A stretch of DNA of 64,000 nt from Burkholderiales bacterium (lineage in GTDB: Bacteria; Pseudomonadota; Gammaproteobacteria; Burkholderiales; WYBJ01), in NCBI GenBank assembly GCA_022841915.1, contig JALHQN010000012.1, positions 1 to 64,000 of the forward strand, in the 5' to 3' direction. Position 1 is the stretch's first letter. Each line of letters begins with the position of its first letter. The position numbers and the translations under genes are program-made. Under the pieces are notes generated by a model. That model saw only the letters and a list, made by a program, of their open reading frames with translations. It was not told the origin of the DNA and did no database searches. Shown here in pieces: positions 1,189 to 13,082 of this stretch.

Positions 1189-3615
1189 CTAGAACTCCGC
1201 CCAATCGCCCTCGGTCCCGGTCTTGGCTGGGGCCAATCGCCGAAGTGCACCCGCCTGCGTACTCGCCCGGCCCGCTGCGTCGTTACCCTTGCGAGGGTGC
1301 ATGGGAGAGACCTTGCTCCCCCGGTTTGCGGCTCGCACTGCAGCGGACTCGGCGAGAGGCGATCGTATGGCCTCACCGCGCGCTTCCAGATGGAACTGCG
1401 CCACCGCCGTGAGCAATCCATCGGCCTGCTCCTGCAGCGACTCCGCCGCCGCCGCCGCTTCTTCGACGAGCGCCGCGTTCTGCTGCGTCGTCTCGTCCAT
1501 CTGCGTCACCGCCTGGTTCACCTGCTCGATCCCCGAACTCTGCTCCTGCGAGGCCACCGTGATCTCCGCCACAATGTCCGTCACCCGCTTGATCGAATCC
1601 ACCACCTGCGACATCGTCGCCCCAGCCTGGTCCACCAACTTCGTCCCCGAACCCACCTTCTCCACCGAGTCCGAAATCAGCGCCTTGATCTCCTTCGCCG
1701 CCGCCGCACTGCGTTGCGCCAGGTTGCGAACCTCCGTCGCCACCACCGCAAATCCACGTCCCTGCTCGCCCGCACGCGCAGCCTCCACCGCCGCGTTCAG
1801 CGCCAGAATGTTCGTCTGGAACGCGATCCCGTCGATCACCGCAATGATGTCCACGATCTTCTTGCTCGACTCGTTGATCGAGCCCATCGTCGTCACCACC
1901 TGATCGACCACCTCGCCCCCCTTCACCGCTACCTCCGCCGCACCGATCGCCAACTGATTGGCCTGCCGGGCGTTCTCCGCGTTCTGCTTCACCGTCGAGG
2001 TCAGCTCCTCCATGCTCGAGGCCGTCTCCTCCAGAGAACTCGCCTGCTCCTCCGTGCGACCCGACAGATCCGTGTTCCCCTGCGCAATCTCCTTCGACGC
2101 CGTCGTGATCGACTCCGTCGTCTCCCGGATCTGCGACACGATCCGGGTCAAGCCTTCGACGGTGCGATTGGCATCGTCCTTCAACTGTCCGAAGGTGCCT
2201 TCGAAGTCGGCCGTGATGCGCTTGGTCAGATCGCCTTCAGCCAGTGCGCTGAGCACCTGCGCGACTTCGTTCAATCCGGCCTGCGTGGCATCGAGCAAGC
2301 CATTCATGCCGGTACCCAACTGAGCGAAGAATCCTGCCTTGCCTGTCAGGTCGATGCGCTTGCTGAAGTCTCCCCTGGAAGCGCCGTCCACGATACTGGC
2401 GATCTCGCCCTCCACCGCCACTTCGTTGGTCCGGTCGATCCATTCGACCGCGGTGCCCAATCGGGTTCCCTGCGCATTGATGACGGGAGCAACCGTCAGT
2501 GCGAACGTGCGTCCGCCGAGCTTGACGGTTGCCCGATGCGTGGATGTCAGGCGATCGAGCATCTCACGCTGGTGGGAGGCCTGCTTGTGGAACGTATCGA
2601 TGCTCGCGCCGAGCAACTTGGCCGACTGAAACTGCGGCAGATCCTTGCGGATGTCGGCCTCGGCGATCTTGAACATCTCCACGATGGATTTGTTCATGTA
2701 GATGATGTTGCAATCCTTGTCGGCCACCATGACGTTGGTCGCGACATTGTCCAGGGCCGTCTGAATGCGCATGGAGGCGTCAGCGGTGCGCCGCGTGTCC
2801 GACAACTCGAAACCCAGCCGGGTCCGAAGCGCCTGCAGCGCACGCCTGACATCGGACAATTCGTCTGTGCCTCGCGCATCGAAGATCTCGTCGAAATCGC
2901 CCTGAGCCAGAGCCTGGATCTGGCGGCTCATTGCGCGCATGTCTCTTGCCATGCCGCTCGCCAGCGTAGCGCAGAACGCCGCACCCGCGAGCGACGTCGC
3001 GCCGAGCACCCAGCTCGCCGACCCTGTGAACGCGCCGAGCAGCCCGGGATACAGCATGGCGGCAGTCGCCAGCCATGCGGGCAACACCATCAGTGCGCTG
3101 GCGAGCACGAACCTGCTTCGCAGCGACATCCGCTCGGACACCTTGATCCAATCACGCCAGCCGGTCGGCACCACGCGCCCGTCGCGGATCGTGAGGCCTT
3201 GTGCACGCCCTTCCTTGAAGAGGCGATACGCCGCTGCAGCGCCATCGACCCGATCGCGACTCGGTTTGGAGCGCACCGACATGTAGCCTGTCACCGCGCC
3301 ACGCTCGACGATCGGCGTTGCGTTGGCCAGCACCCAATAGTGCTCGCCGTTCTTGCGCCTGTTCTTGACCATGCCCGTCCAAGGCTTGCCTTGCTTGAGC
3401 ACCGCCCACATGTCGCGGAAGGCTTCTTCCGGCATATCGGGATGGCGCACCAGGTTGTGCGCCTCGCCGATGAGTTCCGACTCGGCGAAACCGGAGGCTT
3501 CGACGAAGTCGTCGTTGACATAGGTGATGCGGCCCTTCAAATCGGTCTTCGATACGATGGCCATGCCATCGCGCAGAACCCACTCCTGCTGTGTCACGGG
3601 GAGATTGCTACGCAT
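1189..3615 (-). CDS. Aerotaxis-like MCP with PAS sensors and CheR-tether pentapeptide
   Basis: Chemoreceptor of 808 residues with a cytoplasmic sensor. Domains in order: an Aer-like PAS at about 10-110 ([43 protein letters not shown]), two closely spaced membrane segments at about 165-215, a HAMP-like stretch, a second PAS-like domain ([19 protein letters not shown]), a second HAMP-like unit, and the MCP signalling domain whose tip ([20 protein letters not shown]) is near residue 605. The protein ends in DWAEF, which fits the xWxxF pentapeptide used by receptors to tether CheR and CheB. The Aer-type PAS suggests redox, oxygen or energy sensing through a bound flavin; this is inference. It lies downstream of cheW in the same orientation. 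cheR and cheB are not in this window. Confidence 0.93.
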
Positions 3616-4049: not shown

Positions 4050-4571
4050 CTACTCGATCATCGCGTCCACCAATCCCATGTCTGCACCGGCCATCAGCCG
4101 CTCGATATCGACCAGGATGAGCATCCTGCTGTCCAACGCGCCGATGCCGGTCACGTAACGCGTATCGACAGCCGAGCCGAACTCGGGGGCGGGTCGAATG
4201 TGATCGCTCGTGAGCGAGAGCACGTCGGACACGCTGTCGACCACGATACCCACCACGCGATCGGACAGGTTGAGAATGATCACGACAGTGAACTGGTCGT
4301 AATCCGCACGCCCGAGTTTGAACTTCAAACGCAAGTCGATGATGGGCACGATGATGCCGCGCAAGTTCGTCACGCCCTTGATGAAGTCGGGCGCATTGGC
4401 GATCTGCGTGACGGTATCGTAGCCGCGAATCTCTTGCACCTTCAGGATGTCTATCCCGTACTCTTCCGCCCCCAGGCGAAAGGTGAGGAATTCCCGGCCA
4501 CCTGCGATGTCGGGCATGCCGTTCATGTGGATGGGCTCGCTTCTGACATGGGCTTGTGCAGCGTGATTCAT
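4050..4571 (-). CDS. cheW: Chemotaxis coupling protein CheW
   Basis: Scaffold protein that joins receptors to the CheA kinase at the inner membrane. The 173-residue protein is a single CheW (SH3-like) domain with the usual signatures: [20 protein letters not shown], the [13 protein letters not shown] region, PIIDLRLK, and [12 protein letters not shown]. The first ~25 residues are a poorly conserved extension. The ATG at 4571 has AGGAG eight bases upstream; an internal Met at residue 16 or 19 would trim the extension. It follows cheA after 39 bases in the same direction, so the two are probably co-transcribed. Confidence 0.97.
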
Positions 4572-4610: not shown

Positions 4611-6812
4611 TCAGGCGGCCAACAGTTCGCGCGTGCGGGTCAGGCGCACCAGGCCAGCGACGTCGAGAATCAGCGCAACGCGCCCGTCGCCCATGATCGT
4701 GGCTCCCGATATGCCGTGAACACGACGATAGTTCGTCTCCAGACTCTTGATCACCACCTGGTGCTGTCCCACCAGAGCGTCCACGGCAAGCGCCATGCGC
4801 TGCCCTTCAGCCTCGACGATGACCATGATGTTCTGGTCGAACCGGTCGCACTCGCCGCCCACATTGAAGATGCGGGCCGCGGAAAGGACAGGGAGGTAGT
4901 CGCCGCGCACTTGCACAGTGAGTCCGTCACCCGCAACAGTGCGGATGTCCTGCGCGTTGGGCTGCAAGGACTCGACGATGTACGTGAGCGGAACGATGTA
5001 GATCTCTTGGCCGACTCTGACCGACAAACCATCCAGGATCGCCAGCGTGAGCGGCAGACGGATCGTGATTCGGGTGCCCTGCCCGGGAAAGGAATCGATC
5101 TCGACGCCGCCACCCATGGCTTCGATGTTGCGCTTCACGACATCCATGCCGACACCACGGCCAGAGACGTCGGTCACGACATCGGCGGTGGAGAAGCCGG
5201 GCGCGAAGATGAGCTTGAACACCTCCTGGTCTGACATGGTCTCGGAGACCGTCATGCCGCGTTCGGCCGCCTTGGCGAGAATGCGCTCGCGGTTCAGACC
5301 GCGGCCGTCATCGCTCACCTCCACCATGATGTTTCCGCCCTGATGGTAGGCCCGCAACGTCACTGTCCCGCGAGCAGGTTTGCCAGCGGCTACGCGCGCC
5401 TCCGGCATCTCGATGCCATGGTCGAGGCTATTGCGCACCAGATGCGTCAAAGGATCGGCGATCTTCTCGATCACGCCCTTGTCGAGTTCGGTGCCCTCGC
5501 CGACGGTCTTGAGCTCGACATCCTTGCCGAGCTTGCCGGCGACATCGCGCACCACGCGCGGAAAGCGGCTGAAGACGAAGGAGATCGGCAGCATGCGAAT
5601 GCTCATCACCGATTCCTGCAGATCGCGCGTGTTGCGCTCCAACTGATTGAGTCCGTCGTGCAGCCGCTCGAATGCCTCGCTGTTCACTTGCGAGGCTGTC
5701 TGCGCGAGCATCGACTGCGTGATCACCAGTTCACCGACGAGATTGATCAACTTGTCGACTTTGTCGATGCTCACGCGAATGGACGATTCCCCGTTGGTCG
5801 CGGCGACCGCCTTGTCCGTCTGCCGTCGACCGGCAATGCCGACGTCGACATCCGGACGGTCGGTTGCACGCCGGCCGTAAGGCGGGTGCGCGGGCGCGCT
5901 CGACGCTGCCTCGACCATCGGGGTCGGTGACTGCACAGCGGGGAGATCCGTGAAGAAGCCGTAGCTGCTGTCGCCTGCGCCTGCCGAGGCGGGCTCGGCA
6001 GCGCCAGCGACATCGGTGAAGAAGCCGTAGCTGGCATCGCCGCCGGCATCAGCAGCCGGTGCAAGCGAACCGACGGGCAGTTCTTCGCTATCGAACAGCC
6101 CGAAACTGCCATCCGAGGCGGCAGACGATTCTGCGGGAACGCAGGCTGTCGACTGCTCGATCTTGAGCGTACCCGCCACTGCGACGAACTCGATCAGTTC
6201 GCGCACGCGATCGGGCGAAGCATCGGCGGTCAGTTTGAGAACCCATTTGCCTGCCTTGGCCGGCGCCGTCTTTCGCGGGCGCGGGCGCTTGACGACCTCG
6301 ACCTCACCGAGGGTTCCCAGTTCGGCCAACAAGTTGGTCGCGCTTTCGTCCACGGGTGCGGAGAAGCAGATCGTCAGGATCGTCTTGACGCGAGTCGGGT
6401 GAAGTTCGACGCCAGGCTGGGCCTCTGGATCGCAGAGCTGCTCCAGCGTTGCACATACCGCCGTCGCTGCATCCGGATCGGCAGCACCTTCCCCACGATG
6501 GGCGCCGAGTTGTCCTCGGATCACGTCGCCGGCGCGAAGGAATGCGTCGACCATCGGTGCCGTCAACTGCAGTTCGTGCTTGCGAATCTTGTCGAGCAGC
6601 GTCTCCAGCACATGGGTGACTTCCGCCATGTCGGAAAAACCGAAAGTCCCCGCGCCGCCCTTGATCGAGTGCGCGCAGCGAAAGATCGCATTGAGATCGT
6701 CGTCCGTGGGCGCGGCTACGTCGAGCGCCAGCAGCAGGGACTCCATATTGGCCAGATGCTCTCCGGTTTCCTCGAAGAACACCTGGTAGAACTGGCTCAT
6801 ATCCACGGCCAT
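4611..6812 (-). CDS. cheA: Chemotaxis sensor kinase CheA
   Basis: Histidine kinase that phosphorylates CheY in response to receptors. The 733-residue protein has a P1 HPt domain with the phospho-acceptor His48 (CAHSIKGGAGTFGF), a P2-like CheY-docking domain at about 140-225, a low-complexity linker at about 226-330, a dimerisation helix pair (INLVGELVITQSMLAQT), the ATPase domain with N box (LTHLVRNSLDHGIE), G1 (VSDDGRGL) and G2 (VSGRGVGMDVV), and a C-terminal CheW-like P5 domain. The start at 6812 gives MAVDMSQFYQVFFEE, usual for the family, and begins 11 bases after the cheY stop; a longer frame to 6887 would run into cheY. The linker carries three copies of a short aromatic motif (SFGLFDS, SYGFFTD, SYGFFTD). 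Confidence 0.97.
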   Translation of the reverse strand: MAVDMSQFYQVFFEETGEHLANMESLLLALDVAAPTDDDLNAIFRCAHSIKGGAGTFGFSDMAEVTHVLETLLDKIRKHELQLTAPMVDAFLRAGDVIRGQLGAHRGEGAADPDAATAVCATLEQLCDPEAQPGVELHPTRVKTILTICFSAPVDESATNLLAELGTLGEVEVVKRPRPRKTAPAKAGKWVLKLTADASPDRVRELIEFVAVAGTLKIEQSTACVPAESSAASDGSFGLFDSEELPVGSLAPAADAGGDASYGFFTDVAGAAEPASAGAGDSSYGFFTDLPAVQSPTPMVEAASSAPAHPPYGRRATDRPDVDVGIAGRRQTDKAVAATNGESSIRVSIDKVDKLINLVGELVITQSMLAQTASQVNSEAFERLHDGLNQLERNTRDLQESVMSIRMLPISFVFSRFPRVVRDVAGKLGKDVELKTVGEGTELDKGVIEKIADPLTHLVRNSLDHGIEMPEARVAAGKPARGTVTLRAYHQGGNIMVEVSDDGRGLNRERILAKAAERGMTVSETMSDQEVFKLIFAPGFSTADVVTDVSGRGVGMDVVKRNIEAMGGGVEIDSFPGQGTRITIRLPLTLAILDGLSVRVGQEIYIVPLTYIVESLQPNAQDIRTVAGDGLTVQVRGDYLPVLSAARIFNVGGECDRFDQNIMVIVEAEGQRMALAVDALVGQHQVVIKSLETNYRRVHGISGATIMGDGRVALILDVAGLVRLTRTRELLAA

Positions 6813-6823
6813 GGCAGCGCGTC

Positions 6824-7189
6824 CTACCCGATGACTTTCTTCACCACTTCCAACAACTTGGGCGGATCGAAGGGCTTGACCAGCCAACCGGTCGCCCCCG
6901 CGGCCTTGCCCGCCGCCTTCATCGCATCGCCCGCCTCGGTGGTGAGCACCAGGATGGGCGCCGATTTATATTGCGGCATCGTACGCAGCGATTTGATCAA
7001 GGTGAGCCCGTCCATCTTGGGCATGTTCTGATCCGTCAGTACGAGGTTGACGGCCGTCGACTTCGCCTTCGCGAGCCCGTCTTCCCCATCCACGGCTTCG
7101 ACCACCTGATAACCGGCGCTCTTGAGCGTGAACGCGACCATCTGCCGGATCGATGCCGAGTCGTCGACTGCAAGTACGGTTTTCGCCAT
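6824..7189 (-). CDS. cheY: Chemotaxis response regulator CheY
   Basis: Single receiver domain of 121 residues that, when phosphorylated by CheA, binds the flagellar switch. Acidic pocket residues Asp9-Asp10 (AVDDS), phospho-acceptor Asp53 (LTDQNMPKMDG), the Thr83 switch residue (LVLTTEAG) and Lys105 (LVKPFDPPK) are all present. The start has AAGGAG close upstream. It lies between the MCP-like gene and cheA with gaps of 45 and 11 bases, consistent with one operon. There is no separate cheZ in the window; the upstream MCP-like protein may supply that activity. Confidence 0.96.
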   Translation of the reverse strand: MAKTVLAVDDSASIRQMVAFTLKSAGYQVVEAVDGEDGLAKAKSTAVNLVLTDQNMPKMDGLTLIKSLRTMPQYKSAPILVLTTEAGDAMKAAGKAAGATGWLVKPFDPPKLLEVVKKVIG

Positions 7190-7234: not shown

Positions 7235-8506
7235 TCAAAACAGTTCAACGTTGCCGGTGCCCATCCCGGTCTGGCTGACCGGGTTATGAGCCGTGTGCTG
7301 ACGCGCGTCCTCGACGGCACGCGCGCAATGGGAAAGCTCTTCGAGTAGAGCGGGGTGCGCGCTTTCTGCATCGATGCCCGCGCCACGGGTCGCCACGCGT
7401 GCGAGCGCTGTGTTCAGCATGCCCAGCGCTTCCACGCGGCGGGTGAGATGGGACAGCAGCTGCGTGACCATGTCTTGAAACTGCAGCGCCGTCACCGAGG
7501 CATCCACGTCGCGTGCCAGCAGCGTCGCGATCTCGCCCATTCGGGCCACGCCCGACGTCATGCGCTCGTTGATGTGCTTGACTTCGCTCATGGTCTGGTC
7601 GACCTGCTGCTTGGCCTGCAGAGTGAAGTTCATGTCCTTGGACGCGACTTCATGGATCGCGCCTTCGGCGCTCACGACCGAATCGTTCACGCTGTCGACC
7701 TTGGTGCGAATCTCTTGGCTGAACTGATTGGTCCGCCCGGACAGATGCCGAACTTCGTCGGCCACCACGGCAAACCCCCTGCCTGCCTCGCCGGCCCGGG
7801 CCGCTTCGATCGCCGCATTGAGCGCAAGGAGGTTGGTTTGTTTCGAAATGCTCTCGATCTCGCCGAGAATGCTGCGGATGTCGGCAAGGCGCTCGCGAAT
7901 ATCCTCCATGCGCTCCACCAAGCCGACGGCACTGCGGCTGTTGGCGATGGTGTTCTCGACGAAATAATCGAGCGTGCGCGACGTGTCCTCGACGAATTGC
8001 TGGAATCCGGCCGAGGTACCGACTGCGCCGACATCCATGTTCGCGATGCCCAAGGCGACCTGCTGCTGTTGCTGAATCTGCTCGTTGATGCTGCCGAAGC
8101 TGCCGATCACTTTCTCGATCGCCTCGTGCAAGAGCACCTGGACTCGCTCGGCATCCTCACGCGCCGCGGCAACCTGCACTTCCTGCTCGCAGGCGGCGCT
8201 CTCGATGGCCTCGCAGGGCATGCCGGCCGCAACCGAAGCATGCGGCTCATCGGACGCCTGCGCAGGAATATGGTTGGCCATGTCAGCGCAGTCGGCGCGG
8301 TGCAGCTGAACTGCGATTCCCGACCAGATGATGCCGAAAGCGAAGGTGGCGAAGGCGACCCATAGCGAAGTCGGGTGATCCAACAACAGCGCTGCGCCCA
8401 ACGCGAGTCCAAATGTGAGCCCCGCACCCTGAGCGAGCGCTCGCCGCAGATGCAGCGACCGGGGGCCGCTTGCAGAATACGTGGAATGAAGCAATTGCGA
8501 ACTCAT
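7235..8506 (-). CDS. Membrane-anchored MCP-like protein with CheZ-type DxxxQ motif
   Basis: Chemoreceptor-like protein of 423 residues without a periplasmic sensor: two membrane segments at about 25-42 and 47-67 separated by a few residues, then a cytoplasmic helical region. The MCP hairpin tip is intact ([18 protein letters not shown], then [18 protein letters not shown]). After it comes a helix reading [14 protein letters not shown] in which Asp345 and Gln349 match the DxxxQ catalytic pair of CheZ (FQDLTGQVIKR in E. coli). The protein ends NVELF, short, acidic and aromatic like the CheY-binding tail of CheZ. It is the first gene of the cheY-cheA-cheW group. A TTG at 8536 is an alternative start. 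It is certainly MCP-like; the phosphatase role is inference. Confidence 0.88.
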
Positions 8507-8768
8507 GTTTCGATCGGTATCCCGTGCGTGCGTCAACCGCTACCCTGGCGGAGTCGTTTTCATCGTGCACGAATCGACAAGCAGGGCCAGCTTCCTGGCC
8601 GTGCTCCGGGCTTTGACCCGCCGCCGCTTTGGCGACATTGAATTCGCCCGGCATGCCACTCGTTTGCCAGGCAATTTGCGGCACGAGCCTGAAAAACTTG
8701 ATGGCGCGCGAACATCCACGAGCAATCGTGCTTGCGGCACACGGACTTTCCACGTAAATGCATCTCTT

Positions 8769-11700
8769 ATGGCAAACTCGCGGCGACGCGGAATGATCGG
8801 TGGTGCTGGCATGCCTTCCTTACGGAGGGCTGGATGGATTGATAAGCTCAAGTCGCTCGCCGGGGCGCAGCAACGTCACCGAGCGCGCCTCGCGCTGGTT
8901 GCGGGCGCGGTTTTCTCGGCGAGCGTGCTCGCCCTCACGGGCGCCGGCCTCTGGTACGAGCGTGACGGCGAATTGAGTCGCGTGCAGCGCGGCTTGGTCA
9001 ATTTGAGCCACTCGCACGCCGAACTCGTGGCGCAGCGACTCGAGACGATCGACCTCGGTCTGAAGGCAGCCCTAGGTCAGTTGCACGATCAAACCACGCC
9101 CTCCGCTGATGCGCTGCACAATATCCGCGTCCTGCGAGCCCATGCCGAAGCGCTGACGTCGGTGCCCGCCATCGGACTTTACGGGCCTTCGGGCGAGCAA
9201 ATGGCCGGCTCGACCGACGATACCTCGATCCTGCCCGTCTCGTTGGCCAATACGGAGCCCCATGCGGTGCATCGCTCGGGAAGACTGCTGGGGCTGCACG
9301 TCTCGTCCCCGATGCGCCACGCGCCCGGCGGCCCCTGGCGCATCGTTTTGTCCCGGCGGGTGACGGACCAGCGGGGCGACTTCCGCGGATTGATCGTCGC
9401 TATCTTCGAGCCTCACAGGCTCGCGGAAACCTATCGCACACTCGACCTGGGGCCGCATGCGAGCGTGGCCTTGCTCAGTTGGAACGGCACCCTGCTCGCC
9501 ACCTATCCCTGGCGGGACGACCTCGTCGGTCGCGCGTACGCCGGCTTCGGGCTGCATCCCGTCGGTGATGCGGAGGGCGGCCGTGCCATCGACGCAGTGC
9601 CGAGCCCCTTCGATGGTCGTCCGGTGCTCGCCGCCGACACCGCCCTGCGTGGGTTTCCCCTCACACTGAGCCTGATGGCAGACCGGCATGCGGTGTTGTC
9701 GACTTGGCGCCGGCATGCCGCGGCCGGAGGCACCGCCGCCGGGCTCATCAGCGTCTTGGCCCTTGCGCTAGCGCTGGTGCTCGACCGGCATCTGCGGCGC
9801 AGGGAAGAATCGGTCGCTCAGTTGCGCGCGAACCAGGCCGAGCTCACCGAAGCGCACCGCATGGCGCGGCTGGGCAGTTGGCGGATCGACGCAGCAACGG
9901 GCTCGATCAACTGGAGCCCGCAAGCTGCGGGGCTGCTCGGCATCTCGGCTCCGCTCGTTCCCGATCTGGAACGCCTGCTCGTTCATGTGTTCGAAGAAGA
10001 CCGCGGACGCCTCCGGCGCGCCTGGGAGGCACTGACGACGACTGGCTTTCTCGATGTCGAGTTCCGAACCACCCCGGTGGCGGGCGAAGTGCGCTGGCTG
10101 CGAGCGCGGGCCGAGGCCGCCGTCCAGAAGGAGAAAGCCGCTTTCCGCGTGCGCGGCACGCTGATCGACGTCAGCGACGAACGTCGGGCGGAGCAAGCTG
10201 TCCAGCATCTCGCAGCCGTGGTCGAATCGACCGAAGACGCCATTCTGAGCATTTCCGGCGACGGCCGGATTCTTTCCTGGAACCGAGGTGCGACCCGCAT
10301 GTTCGGTCATTCCGCCACCGAGGCCATCGATCGGCGCCTGTACGATCTGCTGCCGGCCGACGAAGCGGAGAAGGCGCTGGAACTGGTGGTGCGAAGCGCC
10401 AGCGGCGAGACCATCGAGGGCTTCGAAACGAAGCTGACTGCCAAGGATCAGCGCGTCATCCATATCGCAGTGACCTTGTCGCCTTTACGCGATGCCGCGG
10501 GTTGCGTCACGGCAGCCTCGGCCGTGGCGCGCGACATTACAGCACGTCGGGAGGCTGAGCTTCGGCGTCTGATGGAACATCGGGTCGCTCAGTTGTTGGC
10601 CGAATCGGCGCCGCTGGCGACCACCATGCCGCGCATCCTGGAGACCCTTTGCCAGTCCCTCGCCATGGACTGCGGAGTCCACTGGGAGCTCGACAACGAG
10701 GCAGCCGGATATCGGCGCGCTTGCCTTTGGTGCGCTCAGCCCCACGATCACGCCGCACTGTGTGGGCAGTTGGCGGCGCAATTGCCGGCCACCGGGCCGT
10801 GCGAACGGATATGGAAAACGTCGTCGCCGCAATGGGTCGGCCTTGGTGAACTGCAGTCCTGTCGTCTGGCCGCGGCAGAGGCATCGATCCCCTTCGTGAA
10901 TGCCCTGTTCATACCGATCACGATGGGCAGCCGCGTCGTCTGCGTGCTGCAACTGCTGACCGCGCAGACGCAACCCTACGACGAGGAGCTGCTCTCGTCG
11001 GCGCGGGCGATCGGCAGCCAAATAGGGCAGTACATGGAGCGCAAGCGAGCCGAGAACGACTTGCGCGCAGAAAAGGAATACATCGGGCACGTCATTGCGA
11101 CCGCCCCCACCCTCATCGCTTCCATCGCGACAGATGGCACCACGCGCTCGGTCAATCCGTCGATTCGCGACATCACCGGCTACCTCCCGGCGGACCTGCA
11201 AGGTCGGAATTTCTGGCACGTTCTGCATGAGGGAGACCACAGCGAAGTAGAACTTCTGCTCGCAGCGGCCGGAAACGGCGGAGTTGCAGATCATCACCTC
11301 GCGATCAGGACGCGCGGTGGCGAGATCAGGGATCTTTCCGTGAGCGCGGCCGCGCGGCGCGCAGCCGACGGCAGCATCGTGGAGTTCATCGTCGTCGGCG
11401 CTGACGTGACGGCGCGGCGGCTCGACGAAGCCCGCAGAGCCGCGGAGTACGCCGTGGCGCGGGCGCTGAGCGAGGAGCAATCCGAAGGCGAAGCGGTCGA
11501 GCGCGTTCTCGGCACGGTGTGCGAGGTGTTGGGATGGGAATGCGGGGTGTTCCGGGTATTCGACCCCGCGACCCGGCAGGTGTCCTGCCGATACCACTGG
11601 AGCAAACCCGAGCTGCCGTTCGTGGCGCTCGCCGAGGCGTTGCGCGAGCCTCGGCACCTCGATGGGAACACGCTTTACTGGCGCACCGTCGAGACCGGGT

Positions 11701-13082
11701 CGGCTCAATGGGACAATCAGTTTCGCCAACTGGCGACCGAGCGCCTGAGACCCAAGCTGGACGACGCGAAGATATGCTCGGCGTTATGCGTTCCAGTCCA
11801 ATCGGGGGAACGCTTCCTGGGTGCATTGCAGTTCTTCGGGCGCTCGAACAACCGGCCGGAACATGTGCTACTCGAGGCCATGCAGGCCATCGGTCACCAG
11901 GTCGGCCAGTTCATCGAGCGCAAGCGTGTAGAAGCCGCCCGGCAGCAAGCCGACGAGCGCCTGCGCAGCATCGCAGCCAACATCCCGGGCATCGTGTTCG
12001 AATACCGGTTGCGTCCCGATCAGTCCGCCTCGTTCGACTTCGTCAGCGAACGGGCGCTGGACATCCTCGAGGAATCGCCCGAGAGCCTGATGGGCGACCC
12101 GCACCTCATGTTCGGATTGGTGGACCCGCATTATCGCCGGCAGCTCCTGCGTTCGATGCGCGTTTCCCGGCACACCCGGTCACTGTGGCTGAATGAAATG
12201 CCGATCCGTACCCGCAGCGGTCGAATACGCTGGGTCAGGGGTCAGTCGATGCCGAAGTATCTCGACGACGGGTCGGTGGTCTGGGACGGCGTCATCGTCG
12301 ATGTCACGGCACAGAAGCAGGCCGAGCATGCCATCCAGCAAATGAACGAACAGTTGGAGCGGCGCGTCGCCGACCGCACCGCCCAGCTCTCGGCGGCCAA
12401 CCGCGAACTCGAATCCTTCGCCTATTCGGTCTCGCACGACCTCAGAGCGCCCTTGCGCTCGATCGAGGGCTTCTCGCGCATACTGATGGAAGAGTATGGC
12501 AGCACGCTCGAGCCGACTGCGGCGGACTACCTGACTCGTGTGAGGAACGCGAGCCAACGCATGGGCCACCTGATCGACGATCTTCTGTCGCTGTCTCGCG
12601 TCACACGCAGCGAGCTCAAGCGCGTGCGCACCGACTTGTCGGCCATCGCGGAGGCGGTCATGCAGGAGTTACGTGCCGAATCGCCCACACGGCAGGTCGA
12701 CATCAGCATACATCCGGGCATGTTCTGCCTCGCGGATCCCAGTCTGATCCGCATTGCGCTCTATAATCTGCTCGGCAACGCCTGGAAGTTTACGTCCAAG
12801 CGGGCAGACGCTAGCATTGAATTCGGCGCGCTCACTCAGCGCAACAAGACGGTCTACTACGTCCGTGACAATGGCGCAGGCTTCGACATGGAACATGCTG
12901 GAAAGCTCTTCGGTGCGTTCCAACGCCTTCATTCGCCCCGAGAGTTCGAGGGCACCGGCGTGGGGCTCGCGACCGTGAGCCGTATCATCGATCGCCATGG
13001 CGGCACGGTATGGGCAGAATCGATTCCCGACAAGGGCGCGACGTTCTACTTCACGATGGCTGGGGGAGGAGCGCGCTCGTGA
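8769..13082 (+). CDS. Giant multi-PAS/GAF sensor histidine kinase
   Basis: Membrane sensor kinase of about 1,437 residues. An N-terminal membrane segment (ALVAGAVFSASVLALTGAG), a Cache-like periplasmic sensor and a second membrane segment (AAGLISVLALALALVLD) are followed by a series of cytoplasmic modules: PAS (ARLGSWRIDAATGSINWS), PAS (VVESTEDAILSISGDGRIL), GAF, PAS (ATAPTLIASIATDG), GAF, PAS (IAANIPGIVFEYRL), a short coiled coil, HisKA with His1223 (SVSHDLRAPLRSIEGF) and HATPase_c (LLGNAWKF, VRDNGAGFD, FEGTGVGLATV). There is no receiver on the protein; the next gene encodes one and overlaps by four bases (GTGA). HisKA plus a separate small receiver resembles phytochrome-type pairs, but no chromophore-binding domain is seen. 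Start uncertain: ATG at 8769, 8793 or 8811. It is divergent from the MCP-like gene. Confidence 0.93.
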   Translation: MANSRRRGMIGGAGMPSLRRAGWIDKLKSLAGAQQRHRARLALVAGAVFSASVLALTGAGLWYERDGELSRVQRGLVNLSHSHAELVAQRLETIDLGLKAALGQLHDQTTPSADALHNIRVLRAHAEALTSVPAIGLYGPSGEQMAGSTDDTSILPVSLANTEPHAVHRSGRLLGLHVSSPMRHAPGGPWRIVLSRRVTDQRGDFRGLIVAIFEPHRLAETYRTLDLGPHASVALLSWNGTLLATYPWRDDLVGRAYAGFGLHPVGDAEGGRAIDAVPSPFDGRPVLAADTALRGFPLTLSLMADRHAVLSTWRRHAAAGGTAAGLISVLALALALVLDRHLRRREESVAQLRANQAELTEAHRMARLGSWRIDAATGSINWSPQAAGLLGISAPLVPDLERLLVHVFEEDRGRLRRAWEALTTTGFLDVEFRTTPVAGEVRWLRARAEAAVQKEKAAFRVRGTLIDVSDERRAEQAVQHLAAVVESTEDAILSISGDGRILSWNRGATRMFGHSATEAIDRRLYDLLPADEAEKALELVVRSASGETIEGFETKLTAKDQRVIHIAVTLSPLRDAAGCVTAASAVARDITARREAELRRLMEHRVAQLLAESAPLATTMPRILETLCQSLAMDCGVHWELDNEAAGYRRACLWCAQPHDHAALCGQLAAQLPATGPCERIWKTSSPQWVGLGELQSCRLAAAEASIPFVNALFIPITMGSRVVCVLQLLTAQTQPYDEELLSSARAIGSQIGQYMERKRAENDLRAEKEYIGHVIATAPTLIASIATDGTTRSVNPSIRDITGYLPADLQGRNFWHVLHEGDHSEVELLLAAAGNGGVADHHLAIRTRGGEIRDLSVSAAARRAADGSIVEFIVVGADVTARRLDEARRAAEYAVARALSEEQSEGEAVERVLGTVCEVLGWECGVFRVFDPATRQVSCRYHWSKPELPFVALAEALREPRHLDGNTLYWRTVETGSAQWDNQFRQLATERLRPKLDDAKICSALCVPVQSGERFLGALQFFGRSNNRPEHVLLEAMQAIGHQVGQFIERKRVEAARQQADERLRSIAANIPGIVFEYRLRPDQSASFDFVSERALDILEESPESLMGDPHLMFGLVDPHYRRQLLRSMRVSRHTRSLWLNEMPIRTRSGRIRWVRGQSMPKYLDDGSVVWDGVIVDVTAQKQAEHAIQQMNEQLERRVADRTAQLSAANRELESFAYSVSHDLRAPLRSIEGFSRILMEEYGSTLEPTAADYLTRVRNASQRMGHLIDDLLSLSRVTRSELKRVRTDLSAIAEAVMQELRAESPTRQVDISIHPGMFCLADPSLIRIALYNLLGNAWKFTSKRADASIEFGALTQRNKTVYYVRDNGAGFDMEHAGKLFGAFQRLHSPREFEGTGVGLATVSRIIDRHGGTVWAESIPDKGATFYFTMAGGGARS

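Follow-up and report, generated by a model that had tools for sequence, protein, structure and literature searches.

An McpA-like receptor at the head of an F7-type chemosensory operon may carry a CheZ-like phosphatase module

How is the signal of an F7 chemosensory system ended when the system itself contains cheY and lacks cheZ? The excerpted text of Ortega et al. (2020, PMC7184735) describes stages 1-2, in which cheY is present in both F6 and F7 and cheZ in F6 only, followed by stage 3, in which mcpA is lost and the F6 cheY/cheZ pair is recruited; the F7 cheY outlasts mcpA through stages 3-4 and disappears in stage 5 only. The same excerpts place McpA-like receptors (PA0180, VCA1088) next to F7 clusters, and they describe the McpA C-terminus as highly conserved and important, with a role that is unclear. 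The question arises here from an operon in the window, which is the whole stretch of 64,000 nucleotides analysed from contig JALHQN010000012.1 of a Burkholderiales bacterium. For this operon the original prediction proposed a receptor fused to a CheY-P phosphatase, based on a CheZ-type DxxxQ pair near the receptor C-terminus.

The receptor gene stands first on its strand and is followed by cheY, cheA, cheW and an Aer2-type receptor gene (Table 1), so the proposed place at the head of a cheY-cheA-cheW operon was borne out by Pfam. The operon is F7-type (cheY-cheA-cheW-aer2) and is headed by an McpA-like (CttP-type) receptor. The start of cheA probably lies further in than that of its longest ORF, because this ORF overlaps cheY, and the operon may be cut, because the window begins at base 1 of its contig. 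The receptor matches Pfam MCPsignal (PF00015) at 1.6e-30, and residues 223-256 presumably form the tip that binds CheA and CheW, as in the MCP literature. Two hydrophobic stretches and the lack of any Pfam sensor family agree with the predicted membrane anchor without a periplasmic sensor. Translation likewise confirmed D345 and Q349 in the C-terminal helix, as the sole DxxxQ of the protein, and an NVELF end within the C-terminal GNVELF. Pfam CheZ (PF04344) gave no match in the receptor at E values up to 1, and its gathering score was not reached. What was seen of the window is consistent with the claimed absence of cheZ. At the far end of the operon, the predicted GDWAEF terminus of the Aer2-type receptor fits the pentapeptide pattern of a CheR tether. 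On the opposite strand, a divergent frame for a large PAS/GAF sensor histidine kinase overlaps, in its longest ORF, the start of the receptor ORF.

Table 1 Positions of the features discussed, in the window and in other sequences.
Feature	Sequence	Positions	Strand	Basis or remark
McpA-like (CttP-type) receptor gene, 423 aa, ATG start	window	7235-8506	-	ORF, Pfam, homologues
Two predicted membrane-spanning stretches, residues about 23-68	window	8303-8440	-	Kyte-Doolittle scan
MCP signalling tip, residues 223-256	window	7739-7840	-	invariant block in alignment A1
CheZ-like helix, 14 residues	window	7445-7486	-	translation, homologue alignment
D345 codon	window	7472-7474	-	
Q349 codon	window	7460-7462	-	
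Conserved C-terminal tail, 14 residues, candidate CheY-docking peptide	window	7238-7279	-	alignment
cheY, likely substrate	window	6824-7189	-	Pfam Response_reg; N59 and E89 (E. coli numbering)
cheA, longest ORF	window	4611-6887	-	Pfam Hpt, H-kinase_dim, HATPase_c, CheW
cheW	window	4050-4571	-	Pfam CheW
Aer2-type PAS-HAMP receptor, ending GDWAEF	window	1189-3615	-	Pfam and NCBIfam Aer2 match
PAS/GAF sensor histidine kinase frame	window	8505-13082	+	
Standard cheZ, own genome	C25	10107-10700		250 bits
T2 receptor, own genome	C45	777-1949		
Homologue lacking the Gln, 291-aa frame	L198	654-1526	+	
T2-like receptor lacking helix motif and FF tail	L167	682-1836	+	
Tip-less relatives, GDVELF-type tail	L177; L178; L179; L180; L181	6650-7693; 7577-8626; 7939-8931; 4697-5731; 3528-4529		
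Free-standing protein, 163 aa	L193	7370-7858	-	
Free-standing proteins, 190-231 aa	L182; L188; L189; L190	7562-8152; 7309-8001; 7646-8248; 7701-8270		
Third receptor-like type	L141; L183; L184	10558-11886; 6586-8151; 5746-7911		

A bare DxxxQ is uninformative by itself, because shuffles of the window protein contain 1.25 such motifs on average; a chance origin was ruled out by conservation among homologues. Whole-protein similarity (E 1e-30) over 185 genomes of the class, with one further member (L032) added, gave a set of 45 homologues; the class search, which scored up to 9 candidates in each genome, had returned at least 44 matches in at least 39 genomes, window protein included. The added member, from a Burkholderiales MAG, was the one family member among three loci found in a scan of genome contigs, and a tblastn search of plasmids gave no match. 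In the 41 homologues that were aligned, the Asp, Gln349 and the Gln three residues before the Asp are kept throughout (41/41 each), and the Phe of the helix is kept in 40, with Tyr in the other one. The tail keeps its final Phe in all 41, Leu and Gly in 38 each and Gln in 37. All four homologues outside the alignment end in Phe, and three of them have both Asp and Gln, one with Tyr in place of Phe. Over the whole set, this amounts to Asp in 45/45, Gln in 44/45 and a terminal Phe in 45/45. Outside the tip, the invariant columns of alignment A1 (40 rows) are F137, Q342, D345, Q349 and F423. The one exception at the Gln (L198) reads LQSEDVVRR, in which the first Gln, the Asp and the tail are kept, Phe is replaced by Ser and Gln349 by Arg; the sole CheA match of its genome is a 1025-aa frame. 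Full invariance of the motif was dropped for this reason. Asp345, Gln349 and the terminal Phe thus passed the proposed conservation test with this one exception. Most family tails have Val or Ile at the second pentapeptide position. A profile run over the loci fetched, with the four homologues outside the alignment left out, found the helix motif and final Phe in 48/48 McpA-like proteins and no motif in the last 110 residues of 55 other matches, fragments included; some circularity enters the 48/48 count, since the motif is part of the profile and a C-terminal profile supplied some of the loci.

The genome that holds the window has three CheA genes, and each has a different neighbour. The CheA on C25 lies with a standard CheZ, the window CheA with the McpA-like receptor, and the CheA on C45 with a second short receptor, here called T2, which carries LQFQDRMSQ and ends in ISFF. 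The search for a separate cheZ in this genome was therefore positive; it does not refute the idea of a receptor phosphatase, because that cheZ adjoins a different cheA and because the window cheA and the third cheA each have a DxxxQ receptor alongside. The LQF.D...Q helix was absent from the remaining MCP frames of this genome that were inspected. A profile of the T2 C-terminus retrieved T2 and the window protein (4.0e-9) from it, the next match having an E of 0.567.

T2 receptors occur at 13 loci in 12/185 genomes by whole-protein search, all 13 with QFQDR plus the Gln. Among 14 T2 neighbourhoods (L079, L129-L140, L194), CheA is present in 12, where T2 stands beside cheY-cheA. Over the loci fetched, 25/26 T2-like proteins carry the motif; one T2-like receptor (L167) has neither the DxxxQ helix nor the FF tail, and two further matches to the T2 profile (L166, L175) were not confirmed as motif carriers. 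The C-termini of McpA-like receptors and T2 are related, as judged from profile alignment (hhalign 96.7%; 98% with the unselected set). Both share the module (QFQDR..QI in T2) and its spacing from the tip, but T2 has an Arg after the Asp and a distinct tail that ends in FF in most cases. T2 also resembles the F9-linked VC1394, which has the McpA layout according to excerpts of PMC7534058; this likeness is one of described layout only.

A CheA census (120 matches in 42 genomes, neighbours within a 15 kb radius) contained 100 frames below 1000 aa, of which 37 are near CheZ, 15 near McpA and 13 near T2 (one of them of the related L084 type), one is near both CheZ and McpA, and 34 are near none. 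Hence a single frame out of the 66 near any of the three is near two of them, and in that case (G025) two CheA genes lie 5 kb apart. The 20 frames of 1000 aa or more include one near CheZ. CheZ is present in 37/39 McpA genomes and was not found in G068 and G101; searches of the window, L032 and 31 McpA neighbourhoods, over the stretches fetched, gave no cheZ match. McpA therefore comes on top of CheZ and, when it has a CheA nearby, pairs with a different CheA. The pairing is not obligatory: no CheA lies within 15 kb of 27/44 McpA genes, some of them on short contigs, and the 34 CheA frames without a partner also include some near contig ends. Three further genomes (6.0-6.7 Mb) have the same gene order as the window, with an LQFQDMSSQ helix and an EVELF end.

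How far does the likeness to CheZ extend? We take D143 and Q147 to be the catalytic residues of CheZ, with D143 contacting CheY K92. Like CheZ, the receptor has DxxxQ in an amphipathic helix after F-[QE], a matching hydrophobic register, about 78 residues from there to a conserved tail, and a gene beside cheY/cheA. Unlike CheZ, it has an MCP tip and a membrane anchor, lacks a Pfam CheZ match, ends in a GxVELF tail rather than DDLLSSLGF, and its CheY partner has no K/R92. Alignment of the McpA profile with CheZ by hhalign gave 53.9% (P 1.3e-4) with Asp and Gln in register, and T2, after removal of CheZ-selected members (10 unselected), gave 32% (P 4.8e-4). With the motif masked, the match fell to 2.3% for T2 and 0.5% for McpA, so the profile similarity is mainly motif-based. 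An earlier strong T2-CheZ homology (95.4%) was withdrawn, since the CheZ model itself had retrieved 4/5 of the members behind it. Pfam CheZ matched 8/13 T2 C-termini at E up to 1 (best 2.2e-6); five of the 10 unselected T2 scored 11.6-14.7 bits (cut-off 30.7) with E values of 0.028-0.26, which are no better than those of several unrelated helical families, and the T2 profile found no CheZ in the PDB. Run over the 185 genomes, the Pfam CheZ model gave nine matches below cut-off, and the five of these that were examined comprise four MCP-like proteins with QFQD...Q and one unrelated protein. Next to DxxxQ, CheZ has an AXXF(Y)Q motif, according to excerpts of PMC7750401; the window protein has ALQFQ at this place, with Glu for the Gln in 33 of the 41 aligned homologues.

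Other measures of this likeness, namely tip distance, heptad register and Asp-to-end spacing, draw on more than the motif letters. The hydrophobic pattern, compared with the motif and six residues either side left out, fits CheZ best at shift 0 of 29 (r 0.56 for McpA, 0.66 for unselected T2), and ordinary MCPs reach 0.35, best at shift 14. The distance from the Asp to the C-terminus has a median of 78 residues in McpA (range 55-94), 73.5 in T2 (66-85) and 77 in CheZ (71-89). The predicted CheZ-like C-terminus is thus retained for the distance from the Asp and given up for the sequence of the tail. The predicted fusion of receptor and phosphatase is partly supported: the conserved Asp and Gln speak for it, and the wider CheZ similarity is lost once the motif is masked.

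We consider it probable, judging from these sequence features, that the window receptor is a receptor-scaffold CheY-P phosphatase with a CheZ-like module in its C-terminal 80 residues. As a membrane-anchored dimeric bundle, the receptor would be able to join the CheA/CheW array by its tip and, by its heptad register, would present D345 and Q349 on its outer face. The tail (VSQ..M..GNVELF) would capture CheY-P of the same operon, after which Q349 would enter the CheY active site and position the attacking water, and D345 would contact a CheY lysine. The receptor would in this manner end the signal of the F7 system and may be the missing off-switch of the second chemosensory system. Dephosphorylation of receiver domains by a helix-borne Gln is also a property of HisKA_3 sensor kinases and Rap proteins, whose scaffolds are unrelated to the receptor.

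The McpA group yielded 17 receivers, of which five were of another type and set apart and 12 were kept, some of the latter from beside an F7-type CheA and not McpA itself. N59 and E89 are kept in F7-type (12/12), T2-linked (11/11) and CheZ-linked CheYs (28/28). Residue 92, however, is Lys or Arg in 28/28 CheZ-linked CheYs and in none of the F7 (0/12) or T2-linked ones (0/11), and residue 106 is Trp in all F7 and T2 CheYs and Tyr in CheZ-linked ones. A salt bridge of D345, if any, must therefore use another lysine (K95 is present in 12/12 F7 and 7/11 T2 CheYs), and a copy of the E. coli contact between CheZ and K92 is unsupported. The five receivers set apart (beside McpA at L089, L090, L091, L096 and L107) have an ISGGGG loop and lack N59; they are possibly another partner of McpA, and because of them CheY need not be the sole partner everywhere.

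These receivers also lend weight to the alternative that CheY or another receiver docks on helix and tail without being dephosphorylated, the receptor being a scaffold, a sink or a localisation site. Tail and helix are equally well conserved, the L198 protein keeps the tail and the Asp in the absence of the Gln, and excerpts of PMC7184735 report McpA with F6 arrays. Docking leaves unexplained, however, why the Asp and, four residues on, the Gln are kept almost always and in the CheZ register, and why these receptors are separated from CheZ-bearing clusters; we regard it as unlikely, though the strongest of the rivals.

A second alternative, to which we give a low probability, is that the tail acts as a variant tether for CheR/CheB, with the helix as an adaptation region and the CheZ of the other cluster serving all CheYs. 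The presence of cheZ in nearly all McpA genomes would allow this, and the tail does resemble the pentapeptide with Val for the aromatic. In excerpts of PMC7184735, however, McpA-like tails lack the aromatic of the CheR pentapeptide, having Val at position 2, and this form showed no interaction with four CheR homologues tested in P. aeruginosa. Residues 92 and 106, at which F7 and CheZ-linked CheYs differ, also speak against a shared CheZ. Several results nevertheless count against the phosphatase reading itself: the CheZ of those genomes might serve all CheYs; the F7 CheY residue 92 is not K/R, the tail is unlike that of CheZ and the likeness is mainly motif-based; L198 has lost the Gln and many McpA genes have no nearby CheA. 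In the excerpts of PMC7184735, moreover, F7 arrays form without McpA (its deletion did not abolish them), McpA is found with F6 arrays and the F7 CheY outlasts mcpA.

A conserved DxxTQ stands in the C-terminal helix of ordinary receptors too, and the remaining alternative, that the helix is this adaptation-helix motif (MDxxTQQNA) with a structural coiled-coil role only, is very improbable, given that the motif lies 111 rather than 96 residues from the tip and in another register, that ordinary MCP C-terminal helices reach 0.3% against the CheZ profile (27 sequences), and that motif and tail exist in proteins without a tip. The distance from tip to Asp is exactly 111 residues in 41/41 McpA and 13/13 T2 receptors, and DxxTQ lies 96 residues from the tip in 12/13 ordinary receptors measured. 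By this spacing and register, the ordinary MCP motif was rejected as the identity of the helix.

With the CttP/McpA receptors PA0180 and VCA1088, likened here through published descriptions (excerpts), the window receptor shares operon position, membrane anchor, MCP tip, conserved C-terminus and Val at the second pentapeptide position. A phosphatase role for McpA/CttP-like receptors was not found in open-licence PMC text, and within the literature searched a connection between such receptors and CheZ-type chemistry appears to be new. If true, it would answer both the missing F7 cheZ and the conserved McpA C-terminus through residues that can be mutated, would give a reason for the loss of mcpA at the point where F6 cheY and cheZ are recruited, and would make the receptor scaffold itself the site at which the signal is ended.

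Helix and tail also occur in proteins without the MCP tip. One family outside the class consists of five proteins of 331-350 aa with the McpA C-terminal half, helix and tail and no tip by pattern (MCPsignal had no match in the two scanned). All five genes follow a CheB-sized receiver gene, and three are near an Aer2-type gene; because these proteins were found by a helix-and-tail profile, the informative part is the missing tip. A QF.D...Q helix, together with a tail that ends in DLF or ELF, is also present in free-standing proteins of 163-231 aa. The shortest (L193) is CheZ-sized, lies between cheY and cheA, has MQFQDATRQ and a DSIDLF tail, and matches NCBIfam CheZ weakly (0.0086). Four others (L182, L188, L189, L190) have QFYD[KR]L[TS]Q and a DDIELF tail, with no CheA, CheW or CheZ match in the stretches fetched around them. 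If helix and tail served receptor signalling alone, the existence of tip-less and free-standing carriers would be difficult to account for.

We tentatively hypothesize that the signalling state of the array gates the phosphatase, since the catalytic pair would sit in the C-terminal helix where other receptors carry adaptation helices, that the receptor would thereby gain a second enzymatic output beyond control of CheA, in that CheY-P is erased at the array, that McpA and T2 form a class of receptor phosphatases for CheZ-less CheA systems across Proteobacteria, and that the tip-less relatives mark a route between receptor and free-standing forms. Separately, a third receptor-like type (L141, L183, L184) was observed, with QFQDITRQ and an end in ELF, ILF or QLF.
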